Shown piece by piece: positions 5,399-12,235 of a stretch of DNA of 64,000 bases. The translations under genes were made by a program, and so were the position numbers. The stretch is taken from NCBI GenBank assembly GCA_025055285.1, contig JANWXM010000003.1, positions 94,714 through 158,713 on the forward strand, given 5' to 3'. Under the pieces are notes generated by a model. That model did no database searches, was not told the origin of the DNA, and saw only the letters and a program-made list of their open reading frames with translations. Source of the stretch: Saprospiraceae bacterium. GTDB taxonomy: Bacteria > Bacteroidota > Bacteroidia > Chitinophagales > Saprospiraceae. Numbering within the stretch: position 1 is the first letter of the stretch; each line of letters begins with the position of its first letter.

Positions 5399-6187
5399 CT
5401 ATTCTTCCGCATTTCTTTCTAGTGCTTTGGCTTCTAACCACAAGGCATCCATCTCCTGCAAGGTCAGTTCGCTCAAGGGACGCGGGGCATTGGCTTCAAT
5501 GTATTCAAAGCGCCGTTTAAACTTTCGGTTAGCCAGTTCTAGTGCCGCCTCGGCCTCTATACCGATGAAGCGCCCGTAATTAACCAGGGCAAAAAGCAAA
5601 TCGCCAAATTCTTCCTCTATTTTGCGCAAAGGCGCGTTATGCTCGATATGGCAGCGCAGTTCGGCCAGTTCCTCCTCGACTTTTTCCCAAACCTCTTCTG
5701 GGTGCTGCCAATCGAAGCCGACCTGGCTGACCTTCTCTTGCATTCGGTAGGCCTTGACCATAGCAGGTAAGCTATTGGGGACACCTGCCAATAAAGAGCG
5801 CTTTCCCTCGCGCAATTTGAGTTTTTCCCAGTTGCGCTTGACCTCTTCCTCGTTAGCTACCTGAACATCGCCGTAAATGTGCGGATGGCGGGCTATGAGC
5901 TTATCGCAAACAGCATGGAGAGCATCGGCGATATCAAAAGCGCCCTTTTCCGAGGCAATTTTGGCGTAGAACACCATGTGAAGCATTAAATCACCAATCT
6001 CCTCCTGCACACTACTGAGGTCGTTACTCAAGATGGCATCGGCCAACTCATAGGTTTCTTCGATGGTCAAATGCCGCAGAGATTCAAATGTCTGCTTGCG
6101 GTCCCAAGGGCATTTCTCCCTCAGCTCATCCATGATGTGCAATAGACGGCCAAAGGCGTGTAGCTTTTCCTCATGAGAATGATGCAT
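5399..6187 (-). CDS. mazG: Nucleoside triphosphate pyrophosphohydrolase MazG
   Basis: A 262-aa NTP pyrophosphatase that hydrolyses (d)NTPs to monophosphates and pyrophosphate, acting as a house-cleaning enzyme. It has the two tandem MazG domains of full-length MazG. The N-terminal one carries CPWDRKQTFESLRHLTIEE, then EETYELADAI and EEIGDLMLHMVFYA, the EExxE...ExxD metal-binding pattern. The C-terminal one carries VEEELAEL and EEEFGDLLFALVNYGRF. The longer frame up to 6229 starts with a hydrophobic, family-atypical extension. The ATG at 6187 gives the usual start (MHHSHEEKLHAFGRLL). A perfect -7 box lies about 40 bp upstream. Confidence 0.92.
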   Translation of the reverse strand: MHHSHEEKLHAFGRLLHIMDELREKCPWDRKQTFESLRHLTIEETYELADAILSNDLSSVQEEIGDLMLHMVFYAKIASEKGAFDIADALHAVCDKLIARHPHIYGDVQVANEEEVKRNWEKLKLREGKRSLLAGVPNSLPAMVKAYRMQEKVSQVGFDWQHPEEVWEKVEEELAELRCHIEHNAPLRKIEEEFGDLLFALVNYGRFIGIEAEAALELANRKFKRRFEYIEANAPRPLSELTLQEMDALWLEAKALERNAEE

Positions 6188-6572
6188 GGCCAAAAAGAAA
6201 AATAACGTCTTGACAAAACAACGGCGCAAAGGTAGTCTTTGCCTAAGAAGTACTCTCTTTCAAGGAGCTAAAAAGGAATGGTTTGCTACCGCAACTAGTA
6301 AAAAAGTAGCCTAAGAGATCTTTCCCACTACCGCTTTTCGCGCTTAAACACTAGAGCAAAGAAAAAAAGTACAGCGCCTGTTTGCGCTTCCCTATTGGCG
6401 TTTAGTGGACTGTAAGAGGTAATGCAAAATTTTAGATAGATCGTTTTTGCCTTCAAATTGAAATTTTTCTCGAAGGATTGAAACCGTAGGTTACAGGAGG
6501 CAACCCTTTGTTTAAAAAATTTACCACCTTTGCCAGAAAGAAACTTTCTTATTTCTGACAAAAACGAGTAGC
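6188..6572. other. Divergent intergenic region between mazG and the M43-like gene
   Basis: This 385-bp gene-free stretch separates two divergent genes. It contains a perfect minus-strand TAnnTTTG box for mazG. On the plus strand, a TTTG (6507-6510) followed by CACCTTTG (6523-6530) might form a poor promoter for the downstream gene. A minus-strand reading frame here starts at TTG, has low-complexity lysine/phenylalanine-rich translation and is not accepted as a gene. Confidence 0.45.
6227..6234 (-). promoter_or_regulatory. -7 promoter box for mazG (TACCTTTG)
   Basis: Read on the minus strand this is TACCTTTG, an exact match to the Bacteroidota -7 consensus TAnnTTTG. It lies about 40 bp upstream of the mazG ATG. 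No clear -33 TTG at the usual distance was found, so the call rests on the -7 element and its position. Confidence 0.5.
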
Positions 6573-7361
6573 ATGCGCACGCTAATTTTTCTGCTCTTTT
6601 GTTCGACGGTTTGGATACCCACCTGGGGGCAGCAATACACGTTTAAGCATACTTCGCTGCCGTGTTTAAACAAGACATTCACCATAGTTGTGCATGTGTT
6701 TCCCGATAGCCTAGGCAACCTCAACATGAACGAATCAGACGTTCGCAAAGCTGTGGCCGAGGCCAATGCTTTTTTCAAACCCATATGCGCGCAATTTGAG
6801 GTATGCGAGTTCCGCTACCATCAGAATTGGCAATACGACACGCTGCGCCGGCCTCAACAGGAAATAGCTGAGATTACAACGAAGTATAATGTAGAGCGGC
6901 GCATCAATCTGTATTTAGTAGACTCTTTCTCCGCTCCATATCCGCTGTGTGGTCTTGCTACACTCAAAGGTATCCAAGACCCTGTATCGGCCTTCGTCCT
7001 GCTGAGTAAGAGGTGTATATCGGCGCGTGCAGTAGCGCGGGAGTTAGGGCGTTTCTTCGGTCTGTTGCATACCTTTGAGGGCAATGGCGACGAACTAGTC
7101 GACGGCTCCAATTGTACCACGGCAGGCGACCGCATTTGTGATACTCCAGCAGATCCTTATGTATTGGGCGAACCGCTTGAAGCTTACGTAGCACCTCCTT
7201 GTCTATTTATAAGCAATAAGCGCGATGCTAAAGGCGAATACTATACTCCCGACTTGGGTAATATTATGTCGTATTATTTGTGCGATACTTGTGGCTTCAC
7301 TTGGGAGCAGCTTCAAGTTATGGCGCAAAATTATCTGGTCTCGGCGGTTAGGTTCTGGTAA
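6573..7361 (+). CDS. Pappalysin/cytophagalysin-like M43 protein with mutated zinc motif
   Basis: A 262-aa exported protein with a signal peptide of about 20 residues (LIFLLFCSTVWIPTWGQ). It has the fold signature of Bacteroidota M43 metalloproteases. After the expected catalytic position come FFGLLHTFEGNGDELVDGSN, GDRICDTPADP, and the Met-turn NIMSYY (Met232). The zinc motif itself should read HExxHxxGxxH. Here it reads RELGRFFGLLH (156-166), with both first histidines replaced by arginine (codons CGG and CGT). The general-base Glu157 and the third ligand His166 remain. By family knowledge such a protein should not bind catalytic zinc in the normal way, so it is probably inactive as a protease. 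The frame is intact, which argues for retained non-catalytic function. It has no T9SS tail. Confidence 0.85.
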   Translation: MRTLIFLLFCSTVWIPTWGQQYTFKHTSLPCLNKTFTIVVHVFPDSLGNLNMNESDVRKAVAEANAFFKPICAQFEVCEFRYHQNWQYDTLRRPQQEIAEITTKYNVERRINLYLVDSFSAPYPLCGLATLKGIQDPVSAFVLLSKRCISARAVARELGRFFGLLHTFEGNGDELVDGSNCTTAGDRICDTPADPYVLGEPLEAYVAPPCLFISNKRDAKGEYYTPDLGNIMSYYLCDTCGFTWEQLQVMAQNYLVSAVRFW

Positions 7362-7460: not shown

Positions 7461-8045
7461 TCATTCTTCCTCATCATCGAGTTTCTGGGTAGTGTAGCCC
7501 TCTGCATTTTCCATGGCTTCGCTACTAATCTCCCATTCGTCTCCCGCTCCAGCGGCAAAACGGGTATTGGGTAATCGAACTCGGTCGCCAATAGCGCGGC
7601 CCGACGCAGAGCGATCACTTTCTTCATCGTAAGAGGGAAATGAGGCCTCTGCCGACGAGGAGCGTTGCGCATTAGCAATAGCCTTCCCTTCCATGCTTTT
7701 CGTAGCGTGCGGTACCAATCGCAAACGGTTCTTGTCAATTAGTTGACCCGTCACGGTACAGATTCCGTAAGTTTTATTTTGAATACGCAGTAGGGCATTT
7801 TTCAAATCCTGAATGTAGCGTTGTTGACGCTGAGCCATGCGCTGCAAGAGTTCCAAATCTGCATGCGTAGAGGAATCGTCGTACCAGTCTCCGCCCTGCT
7901 GGTTAAAGCCTTGCTCATTTAGTTCATCGATCTGCCTTTGCGTAAAGGCCAATTCCTCTTCAGCCTTTGCCAATTTTTCTAAAATGAGTGTTCGAAATTC
8001 TTCCAATTCCTCGTCGCTATATCTGATTTTCGGTTCCTGCGCCAT
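7461..8045 (-). CDS. TraR/DksA-family regulatory protein
   Basis: A 194-aa member of the DksA/TraR family in its Bacteroidota form. DksA proteins bind the RNA polymerase secondary channel and alter promoter kinetics, often with ppGpp. The N-terminal half is a coiled coil (EELEEFRTLILEKLAKAEEEL). It is followed by the GDWYDDSSTHADLE segment and the family hallmark YGICTVTGQLIDKNRLRLVPHATK. Only one of the four zinc cysteines of E. coli DksA is kept, which from memory is usual in this clade. An acidic tail (KLDDEEE) follows about 60 low-complexity residues. The ATG at 8045 (MAQEPKIRYSDEEL) is chosen over an upstream start; a -7 box lies about 50 bp upstream. Confidence 0.88.
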   Translation of the reverse strand: MAQEPKIRYSDEELEEFRTLILEKLAKAEEELAFTQRQIDELNEQGFNQQGGDWYDDSSTHADLELLQRMAQRQQRYIQDLKNALLRIQNKTYGICTVTGQLIDKNRLRLVPHATKSMEGKAIANAQRSSSAEASFPSYDEESDRSASGRAIGDRVRLPNTRFAAGAGDEWEISSEAMENAEGYTTQKLDDEEE

Positions 8046-8419
8046 ACTAGGATCGGTTTTCTTTTTCGAAACTGGATGTCTTTTACTTTGAGCGGCAAAG
8101 TTAGAAGAAAAAATTAGGGTGAAGGAAGAATAAGCAAAAATTCTCGACAACCCGGACTTTTTTTGTGAGCCCTACACCATTTATTCCACTTGCTCAAATA
8201 GGCGATTAAAGGAGGCTCAATGTGCTTGCCACAACAAGGCAATACGACTCGTAGAAAGCGGCATTCCATCTTGCCTGCCAATGGCCGTTACTTTCGGCAT
8301 ACGGCCTCAGCAGCGTCTGAGGAATTGCTCCTACCTTAGCGCCGCTAGTCTCGCGGTACTGATGCAGCACTCTTAATCTGACCGAGAGCGCTGGTTGCTC
8401 TTTGCTAAATGCTTTTACC
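8046..8419. other. Divergent intergenic region upstream of hpt
   Basis: This 374-bp region lies between the divergent TraR/DksA and hpt genes. It holds a minus-strand TAnnTTTG box, described separately. I see no additional gene or RNA in it, and no clear promoter box for hpt. Confidence 0.4.
8096..8103 (-). promoter_or_regulatory. -7 promoter box (TAACTTTG)
   Basis: On the minus strand this reads TAACTTTG, an exact TAnnTTTG match about 50 bp upstream of the chosen ATG of the TraR/DksA gene. It lies inside the longer alternative frame, which supports the downstream start. No obvious -33 box was found. Confidence 0.5.
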
Positions 8420-10128: not shown

Positions 10129-10357
10129 CTATTTCTCCAGCGGAAAGAATTCGTCGGGGCGAACGCAGCAGGCGGAGGCAGATAAATGCAGGCCCTCTGC
10201 TAGTTAGCTTTCTCGTCTTTTTCGAAGAAACTTGAGAAGGAGGCCTTGCACAGGGTGAGCAGACTTTACGCTGGCTTGAGTTTCCTTACGGCTCGGTGTT
10301 CGCGCAAAAGATGCTTGACCATATAGTTGAATCCGGTTGCCGGAGGAAAAACTTCAC

Positions 10358-10385
10358 TTCGACAACATAATTTTGCATAGATTTG
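10358..10385 (+). promoter_or_regulatory. Promoter for the secreted deiminase gene
   Basis: TAGATTTG (10378-10385) is an exact Bacteroidota -7 box. TTCG, 16 nt upstream (10358-10361), is a one-mismatch -33 element. The ATG of the deiminase gene is about 39 bp downstream of the -7 box. The box lies inside a longer alternative frame and so supports the start at 10424. Confidence 0.45.
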
Positions 10386-10423
10386 TATTTCATCTAATTA
10401 GTAAAGTTTTAAAAGCTATTGCC

Positions 10424-12235
10424 ATGAAAAACCTTTTTTACTTCCTGCTCTTGGCGAGTATCTATGCTCTTTTACAACCCAATAAAGTATTCGGACAAGA
10501 AGATGAGGTCTTACCTCGATATATGACGCCTACCGAACGAGCGTTGCTCGCAAAATATCGGGATATCCCTGGATGGGCTCAAGGCAACTTCAATCCGCCT
10601 CCTCGGCCAGTGCGCGCTATGGCAGAATGGGAGGAACTTCAAGCATTAGCTATTACGTGGCGAGGTTATTGGAACGTATTGGCTGAAATCGTTCGTGCTT
10701 CGCAAAAAGAGTGCCGTGTATTGATTACTTGCCCAGACAGTACGACCCTTAGCACCTGCCGTTCCTATTTAAATAACCGGGGCATAAACCTACAACAAAA
10801 CATTGACTTCCTTGTGACACCGAGCAATTCGGTGTGGATTCGAGATTATGGCCCAAATACGGCCTACATGGGGGAGGTAGACTCCATGTGCATCATAGAC
10901 TGGATATACAACCGCCCTCGACCGCTGGATGATGTCTTACCCGCTGCGGTTGCCCAATACTTAAATGTGCCTATTTACAATGCCGCTCAAGCTCCTGACG
11001 ACCTGGTGAATACGGGTGGCAACTTCATGTGCGACGGACAGGGAACAGGCTTTTCCTCAAAGCTCGTCCTGTACGAAAATGCTCCGGGGAATGGATTTGG
11101 CGTTACGCCTAAGAATGAAGCTCAAATTGACCGCATCATGCGGGATTACATGGGAGTAAAACAATATATCAAAATGGAAGTCCTACCCTACGATGGTATT
11201 CACCACATCGATATGCACATGAAGCTGTTAGATGAAGAGACCCTGCTTGTAGGCGAGTATCCACCAGGGATAGCGGACGGCCCTCAAATCGAGGCAAATA
11301 TTCAGTACGTGTTGAGCCATTTTAAAACATACCTAGGCACGCCATTTCGAGTCATTCGCATCCCTATGCCGCCTCATAATGGAAAATATCCTCACGAGGG
11401 CGGCCATTATCGAACCTATTTGAACGCAGTATTTGTGAACAAAACCGTCATTGTTCCCTTCTATGAAGAGAAATATGATACGATGGCAAAGCGCATTTGG
11501 CAAGAAGCGCTTCCAGGATATAATATCGTAGGAATTGACTGCAATCATGTTATTCCTGCTTTTGGCGCTATCCACTGCATCACGAAAGAAATAGGGGTGC
11601 CCGACCCACTGCTCATTCTTCACCAGCCTCTGTCTTATCAAAAACCTTTGTGCGTTGTCAATACTCCTGCTACAACAGGTTATGTCATTTGGGCCAGTGC
11701 TCATCATCGCAGTGGAATAGATTCTTTTAAAGTGTGTTACACCACTGATTTAAACGGCCCCTGGACGTGCAGGCCTCTCCAACCTTATGTGCTTGGCGAT
11801 ACCCTTTGGACACATCAAGGGCTCATTCCTCGCCAGCCTGCAGGTACCACTGTCTATTATTACTTAGAGGCTACAGCCAAAAATGGGAAACGCTTAGCAC
11901 GCCCCATGCCTGCGCCTAGGGGCTACTGGAAGTTCTGTGTCAAAGAAGAAAGTGTGAGTACGCGCCCAGAAGCTGTTCAAGTGTCGCTTTTGCCTGTTTA
12001 TCCCAATCCCGCTTCGGCTATTACAGTAGTGCCGCTGCGCGCTGATCAGCCGATATTCGCTACTGTAAATCTCTACAACGCTGTAGGACAATTGGTGCAG
12101 ACCCTCTTCGAAGGAGAATTGCCTGAAGGAGAGAAAAATCTCTTCATCCATGCAGATCGGTTATTCGCCGGCACGTACTGGGTGAGCGTACAGACACCTT
12201 ATCAAACGTTAACGCAAAAGTTGCTTGTTCGCTAA
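10424..12235 (+). CDS. Porphyromonas-type peptidylarginine/agmatine deiminase with T9SS sorting domain
   Basis: A 603-aa secreted enzyme. A signal peptide (MKNLFYFLLLASIYAL...VFGQ, cut near residue 25) precedes a PAD_porph catalytic domain. Catalytic-type residues are visible: WIRDYGP with Asp141, GGN (198-200), HHIDMH with His261 and Asp263, and AIHCIT with Cys385. By family knowledge these convert a guanidino group to a ureido group with release of ammonia. An Ig-like segment (residues about 400-515) follows. The final ~80 residues are a T9SS type A sorting domain (YPNPAS, then GQLV, then FAGTYWVSVQT and KLLVR). This order, signal-catalytic-Ig-CTD, is that of P. gingivalis PPAD. Peptidylarginine and free agmatine cannot be separated as substrates here. 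The longer upstream frame has no signal peptide. Confidence 0.88.
   Translation: MKNLFYFLLLASIYALLQPNKVFGQEDEVLPRYMTPTERALLAKYRDIPGWAQGNFNPPPRPVRAMAEWEELQALAITWRGYWNVLAEIVRASQKECRVLITCPDSTTLSTCRSYLNNRGINLQQNIDFLVTPSNSVWIRDYGPNTAYMGEVDSMCIIDWIYNRPRPLDDVLPAAVAQYLNVPIYNAAQAPDDLVNTGGNFMCDGQGTGFSSKLVLYENAPGNGFGVTPKNEAQIDRIMRDYMGVKQYIKMEVLPYDGIHHIDMHMKLLDEETLLVGEYPPGIADGPQIEANIQYVLSHFKTYLGTPFRVIRIPMPPHNGKYPHEGGHYRTYLNAVFVNKTVIVPFYEEKYDTMAKRIWQEALPGYNIVGIDCNHVIPAFGAIHCITKEIGVPDPLLILHQPLSYQKPLCVVNTPATTGYVIWASAHHRSGIDSFKVCYTTDLNGPWTCRPLQPYVLGDTLWTHQGLIPRQPAGTTVYYYLEATAKNGKRLARPMPAPRGYWKFCVKEESVSTRPEAVQVSLLPVYPNPASAITVVPLRADQPIFATVNLYNAVGQLVQTLFEGELPEGEKNLFIHADRLFAGTYWVSVQTPYQTLTQKLLVR

Follow-up and report, generated by a model that had tools for sequence, protein, structure and literature searches.

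A secreted M43-fold protein of a Saprospiraceae bacterium that has lost its zinc site and probably partners a T9SS type B surface protein

Results

The locus and its features

The window (the whole stretch of DNA analyzed, 64,000 nucleotides) derives from a Saprospiraceae bacterium whose genome (G000) comprises 3.6 Mb in 93 contigs. The open reading frame at 6573–7361 (+) begins with ATG, contains no internal stop, and encodes a protein with a hydrophobic, signal-like N-terminus; its family is termed A herein. The features considered are listed by window position.

5399..6229, minus strand: MazG, the upstream neighbor; found in the same place in sister species
6573..7361, plus strand: family A gene (262 aa), M43/pappalysin fold, zinc site lost
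6573..6632, plus strand: probable Sec signal peptide, approximately residues 1–20 (MRTLIFLLFCSTVWIPTWGQ), judged by eye
7038..7052, plus strand: altered zinc motif, CGG GAG TTA GGG CGT = R156 E L G R160, where HExxH is expected
7068..7070, plus strand: third ligand position, H166 (CAT), retained
7092..7160, plus strand: scaffold and putative calcium-loop block, residues 174–196 (ELVDGSNCTTAGDRICDTPADPY), kept in intact and altered family members
7260..7277, plus strand: Met-turn NIMSYY, residues 230–235; M232 lies here, as does Y234, the Tyr-switch position, which is retained
7356..7358, plus strand: Trp262, the C-terminal residue; an aromatic residue ends the chain in 125 of 127 family members
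7461..8150, minus strand: DksA/TraR-like protein (229 aa), the downstream neighbor; found in the same place in sister species

The first-pass annotation had described an M43-type protein with its zinc-binding His residues changed to Arg and with the frame, signal peptide, third ligand, and M43 markers otherwise intact; this description was confirmed throughout. Residues 150–172 are SARAVARELGRFFGLLHTFEGNG. The motif at 156–166 is RELGR...H, in which R156 is encoded by CGG (7038–7040) and R160 by CGT (7050–7052), compared to CAY in sister species; E157 is kept. When read against HExxHxx(G/N)xx(H/D), the protein has RELGRFFGLLH; two of the three ligands are Arg, and the motif of an active M43 enzyme is lacking. 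On chemical grounds, such a protein would be expected to hold no catalytic zinc and to cut nothing. The M43 fold markers GLLHTFEGNGDELVDGSN, GDRICDTPADP, and NIMSYY are all present, and the sequence alignment features invariant or nearly invariant Asp and Thr residues between positions 186 and 194, where a calcium loop would be expected. The roles of the Met-turn and the Tyr-switch were taken from passages of PMC11674741; by the same passages, Y234 of the window protein lies at position M+2, as in cytophagalysin (M284/Y286). The Pfam M43 family (PF05572) matched the window protein with 20.9 bits, under the cut-off of 23, and the sister protein L034 with 35.9 bits. A T9SS sorting domain was absent from the window protein in Pfam and NCBIfam searches at E-values up to 1.

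The adjoining genes were considered as a guide to function, and MazG and the DksA/TraR-like protein were uninformative. No support was found for an inhibitor or an immunity-like partner, both of which had been put forward in the first-pass annotation. The zinc-finger match of the DksA/TraR-like protein (23.5) is just under the Pfam cut-off (24.9). Farther downstream, the product of 10337–12235 combines a Porphyromonas-type peptidyl-arginine deiminase domain (PF04371, 139.6 bits) with a type A T9SS tail (PF18962, 28.3 bits). Sister loci L034 and L063, both of which end there, contain partial matches to it at the corresponding position. With regard to a phage origin, the window gene had no match in a viral contig collection.

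Fold of the encoded protein

The AlphaFold model of the window protein (71 sequences) had a pLDDT of 93.4 and a pTM of 0.87. Among solved structures, it most resembles the pappalysins, with Z = 18.4 for PAPP-A (8a7d), 17.9 for ulilysin (3lum; rmsd 2.9 over 206 aligned residues), and 17.6 for mirolysin (7od0), and the protein was accordingly assigned to the pappalysin fold. These relatives were found by fold only; a search by sequence yielded no solved relative at E-values up to 0.1. The alignment to ulilysin begins at residue 28 of the model and at residue 61 of the ulilysin chain, which leaves no space for a zymogen pro-segment: the signal peptide and a few residues precede the catalytic domain, and the N-terminal pro-segment with a cysteine switch that marks the lower pappalysins is missing. 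A member of a clade with an altered site, L105, was also modeled (58 sequences, pLDDT 89.9). It kept the fold (Z = 17.6 to ulilysin 2cki; best row 17.8, tied), and it matches no Pfam family despite that retention.

Orthologues and codons in the genus

The genus search covered 42 genomes. HExxH...H was found in all 11 further orthologues of the genus in which the site is visible (L005–L015) and in 20 of the 20 longer M43 relatives fetched from the genus (L002–L004, L016–L026, and L028–L033; the 29-aa fragment L027 was left out of this count). Gene A is syntenic in the nearest species (L005, which equals L034; L006; and L014 with L063) as far as the loci extend, the order being MazG, A, DksA/TraR-like, phosphoribosyltransferase, FAD oxidoreductase, and PAD. 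The window protein is 66–72% identical to its sisters, and the adjoining proteins are mostly 77–81% identical.

G000 holds three longer, distant M43 proteins (L002–L004), all with HExxH. No second small A was found in it, and the notion that the window gene is a copy released by an intact paralogue was therefore ruled out in this genome. Of the longer proteins of the genus, L016 and L017 have SprB repeats and MAM in the same chain, and L028 has a PKD match there, just under the cut-off; these hint at a repeated joining of M43 and T9SS surface modules.

The codons at the two His positions are CAT/CAC in L005, CAC/CAC in L006, and CAT/CAT in L014 and L063. Because the sisters have CAY at both sites, reaching CGG takes two base changes and reaching CGT one or more, i.e. 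at least three in all. The first-pass annotation had named HELGH in close relatives, together with HELGH in the raw reads of this genome, as the signature of a sequencing or assembly error. The first half of that signature was found, as the close relatives do read HELGH; the second is unlikely, since it would take three or more base errors in a span of 15 bases. An error is thus extremely improbable, even for a sequence known from a single assembly in 93 contigs: those base errors would have had to occur without a frameshift, and Arg is found at the second His position elsewhere in the family (HELGR in L078, L082, L095, L098, and L157).

Repeated loss of the zinc site in family A

Members of family A were collected from the genus search, a named genome contig scan (best 80 of 175 relatives), a search of 298 genomes of the taxonomic family, and fetched stretches. 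The resulting 210 loci represented 135 distinct small proteins (≤330 aa, tblastn E ≤1e-25); seven fragments were dropped, and a quick tree was calculated for the remaining 128 sequences after removal of the motif columns (37 of its 125 branches are open). Sampling was by similarity to the window protein, and one of the six patterns used in the contig scan (LHTFEGNG) includes the third-ligand His, so that the sample favors intact members.

The site is H-E-H-H in 61 of the 128 sequences; in the other 67, a ligand or the catalytic Glu has been lost, and HExxH itself is lost in 59. The altered rows make up 15 all-altered clades on the best tree, with a minimum of 15–17 changes depending on the definition; on well-supported branches only, there are 6–8 independent pairs. 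Five of the altered rows read H-E-H-D and may still be active, because Asp can serve as a third ligand according to passages of PMC11674741. The change in the window protein is real, and it is not an isolated one: other members of this small family have lost ligands or Glu independently, and the idea of the window motif as a lone oddity was rejected (67 of 128 altered). By genome (n = 94 with A, counting A among the matches listed), 34 had only H-E-H-H copies, 56 only altered copies, and four both. One genome, G073, has three A copies (L173, L205, and L210), all altered (HHHN, HHHD, and HHHT), and two B matches (B is described below).

The Tyr-switch position (Tyr234) is kept in 60 of 61 intact sequences and in 12 of 67 altered ones. 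In a sign test of Tyr against ligand on six supported pairs, the two changed the same way in 4.2, the opposite way in 0.0, and without difference in 1.8 (median p = 0.125); with so few pairs, the 0.05 level was out of reach. For the scaffold, 66 rows with His or Asp as the third ligand were compared to the 62 others. Residues C181, D186, C189, D190, T191, D194, C210, D218, N230, M232, and Q246 are 95–100% kept in both groups, and the last residue is Trp in all 66 of the former and aromatic in 59 of the 61 readable others. Among 65 non-ligand columns that intact members conserve, the median number of deviations is seven in altered sequences vs. three in intact ones; altered members are thus somewhat less conserved elsewhere, and some relaxation is likely.

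These data also bear on whether the window protein could still be a peptidase, by means of other metal ligands or another mechanism. It does retain E157, H166, M232, and Y234. With Arg at two of three ligand positions, however, and with most altered relatives (55 of 67) having lost the catalytic Tyr too, as non-cutting proteins would, continued peptidase activity is very improbable.

Co-occurrence with a large surface protein

The regular companion of A, termed B, is a large surface protein (ca. 1,230–1,540 aa) with a PKD array and a T9SS type B sorting domain. Three B proteins were scanned with profiles: those of L035 and L105 have many PKD domains and the sorting domain (CHU_C/TIGR04131), and that of L095 has a PKD array and a CHU_C match just under the cut-off. 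The B alignment contained 56 long copies from A loci and the copy of the window genome.

Of the 298 family genomes, 92 have A and B, two A only, five B only, and 199 neither, where A was counted among the matches listed (small frames at E ~1e-29 or better, with weaker small members possibly missed). The 42 genomes of the genus comprise 13 with both, none with A only, none with B only, and 29 with neither, if the contig-end fragment L027 (G006) is counted as A. Fisher p-values for the co-occurrence are 5e-68 and 4e-11, respectively, with shared ancestry ignored. In three of the B-only genomes (G067, G115, and G135), B reaches a contig end, and A would be expected on that side; in the other two (G207 and G322), the matches are weaker and fall in frames of 1,878 and 1,900 aa. 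The A-only genomes are G108 and G150. In G108 (L208), the A frame is only ca. 110–113 aa long, has a Y-E-H-S motif, lies away from the contig end, and is possibly a broken copy. The A of G150 recurs in L058 (QQUB01000866.1), where the motif is H-L-H-H and no B is found in the 7.5-kb contig.

By direct count, 71 of 80 loci have B no more than 1.5 kb from A, as do 24 of the 25 loci with an altered A; the two genes are divergent or follow the order A–B on one strand. The nine loci without B at this distance are L034, L044, and L063, which are from the clade of the window gene; L041, L050, L061, and L064, which end close to A; L055, in which a B-cluster frame is located ca. 1.5 kb from A; and L058, described above. 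Clustering of the neighbors in 81 loci, for which stop-to-stop frames were used (antisense A frames joined group B in L038, L063, and likely L039), gave two further groups. Group C, present in 41 loci, is PorP/SprF by profile (two scanned, L054 and L105). Group D, present in 18, is OmpA/PD40/TPR by profile, with a PorE-like match under the cut-off (one scanned, L049).

The B of the window genome is intact (ca. 1,450 aa, G000:C11:425052-429401) and 62% identical to that of L035 over residues 55–1504. It is not adjacent to A, which is on contig C33. A and B are also on separate contigs in G027, G037, and G038, which belong to the window's lineage, and in G006. The A proteins of G027, G037, and G038 are intact or read HELGH, and the separation of A from B probably predates the loss of the zinc site in the window's species, with both genes kept. 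In this lineage (G000, G027, G037, and G038) the genes are unlinked, so that the pairing is supported there by co-occurrence alone. The "binder" of the first-pass annotation receives its support indirectly, from this close co-occurrence with the PKD/T9SS type B protein.

A different job can be imagined, in which A acts as a guard, decoy, or inhibitor, occupying the substrates or the inhibitors of active metalloproteases, and in which its link to B reflects shared regulation or co-transfer. Regulation of active proteases by inactive homologues is established (PMC11266112), and G000 has the three longer M43 proteins with HExxH that such a role could call upon. The presence and absence of A nevertheless track B closely, even in the window's clade, where the genes are unlinked; moreover, no H-E-H-H copy was found in 56 of the 94 genomes with A among the matches listed, so that no intact A sibling is there to be regulated. 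We regard this role as improbable.

Constraint on the window gene

A purpose-written branch codon model (GY94-type, F3x4) was applied to 10 genus sequences over 257 codons. The window branch had an omega of 0.099, and the remaining branches 0.107. When omega on the window branch was set to 1, the fit worsened by 12.3 lnL units, and neutrality was rejected; the profile likelihood range was ca. 0.045–0.19. The first-pass preference for a retained pseudoprotease over simple loss is thereby sustained, the window value being as low as that of intact relatives, as is its statement that there was no other decay: over the 65 conserved non-ligand columns, the only deviations of the window protein are residue 220 and one column in which most rows have a gap. 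Within altered clades, omega was 0.038 for HERY (five rows) and 0.077 for HHHN (seven rows), both with tree lengths near 9 and possibly part-saturated; two intact clades had values of 0.058 and 0.052. Two further values were set aside due to saturation: 0.012 for HQHD (tree length 38.65) and 0.008 for the intact clade of L046 (tree length 74.46).

The main rival explanation is a very recent loss, with the gene now at the start of its decay: the need for the activity has gone, selection acts on nothing else, and too little time has elapsed for damage to show. In its favor, the scaffold and Tyr234 of the window protein are still in place, and this protein is the sole altered member among genus orthologues with the site in view. 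It evolves faster than its sisters, with an end branch in the protein tree approximately four times as long as theirs (0.34 vs. ~0.09), although its omega is not elevated. Tyr234 is retained, as a recent loss predicts, so that retention has been put to a lesser test in the window protein than in old altered clades. A whole-branch omega is blind to roughly the last tenth of the branch, and loss followed by neutral evolution may have occurred within that span. The upper limit of ~0.19, however, confines strict neutrality to at most ~9% of the branch, B is still intact in the same genome, and loss of the site elsewhere in the family was followed by long retention. On balance, incipient decay is judged to be unlikely.

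Discussion

It is moderately probable that the window gene is a recently inactivated member of a family of T9SS surface-protein partners, the lasting role of which is to bind B. We infer the physical contact between A and B, along with A's site of action and contact surface. A is a small secreted family of the Bacteroidota and a near-obligate genomic companion of B, with a PorP/SprF-type carrier nearby in about half of the loci. In the proposed mechanism, it would bind B during export or display, with the putative calcium/disulfide lobe, the cleft, and the aromatic C-terminus as contact surfaces. The protease activity was probably ancestral and dispensable, having been lost in many lineages and, apparently, recently in the window's species. 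Repeated loss of the site without loss of the pairing suggests, as the simplest account, that binding of B is what lasts and that cutting is optional. Extended to the Bacteroidota at large, the M43-fold A would be an unrecognized, near-obligate, and essentially non-proteolytic partner of T9SS type B assembly (the PKD-array protein and its PorP/SprF carrier), with catalysis optional and repeatedly discarded; this extension is offered tentatively, as plausible though short of probable.

Compared to the pappalysins of MEROPS M43 (ulilysin, mirolysin, PAPP-A, and cytophagalysin), A shares the fold over the whole mature chain (Z ~17–18), the Met-turn, the Tyr-switch position, and the Cys/Asp scaffold, and the sister orthologues of the window gene keep HExxH...H. 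Unlike them, the window protein has two ligands replaced, has no room for a pro-segment, and stands alone without extra domains; family A is also accompanied by the PKD/T9SS type B protein and ends in a nearly invariant aromatic residue (125 of 127).

The T9SS type B systems with a PorP/SprF carrier (SprB-SprF and PorE-PorP-PG1035) are likewise related, as B combines PKD domains with a type B sorting domain, C is PorP/SprF, and D is PorE-like under the cut-off; here, however, the regular companion of B is an M43-fold protein. Passages of PMC9143113 and PMC12635249 report that T9SS type B cargo stays bound to a dedicated PorP/SprF-like carrier. The main texts of PMC9143113, PMC12618676, and PMC12635249 do not contain the terms "metalloprotease", "M43", or "PKD", and that of a review of inactive metallopeptidases (PMC11266112) contains neither "M43" nor "pappalysin". 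Among open PubMed Central papers, as represented by their titles or the beginnings of their abstracts, no description of the A–B pair or of an M43 pseudoprotease family was found.

Inactive enzymes with a retained job are already known. A family in which some 15 clades have lost the site yet kept one companion would be an unusual natural series; it separates the purpose of A (partnering B) from its former activity (cutting), and it offers testable stages: intact, freshly lost (the window gene), and long lost. If the reading is true, one gene family would hold many natural replicates of the conversion of an enzyme to a binder, and an unlisted component of T9SS type B surface proteins is suggested. 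For annotation, the fold should not be taken as proof of protease activity, as about half of the sampled members are without an intact site.

Human ADAM22 is catalytically dead; it belongs to another metzincin family and is a multidomain human protein. As in such inactive metzincins, the metzincin domain of A has been kept without a working catalytic motif, whereas A is small and bacterial, and its family has lost the site on many occasions. Structures of ADAM22 were present in the fold-match lists, where a complex of ADAM22 with LGI1 is named.
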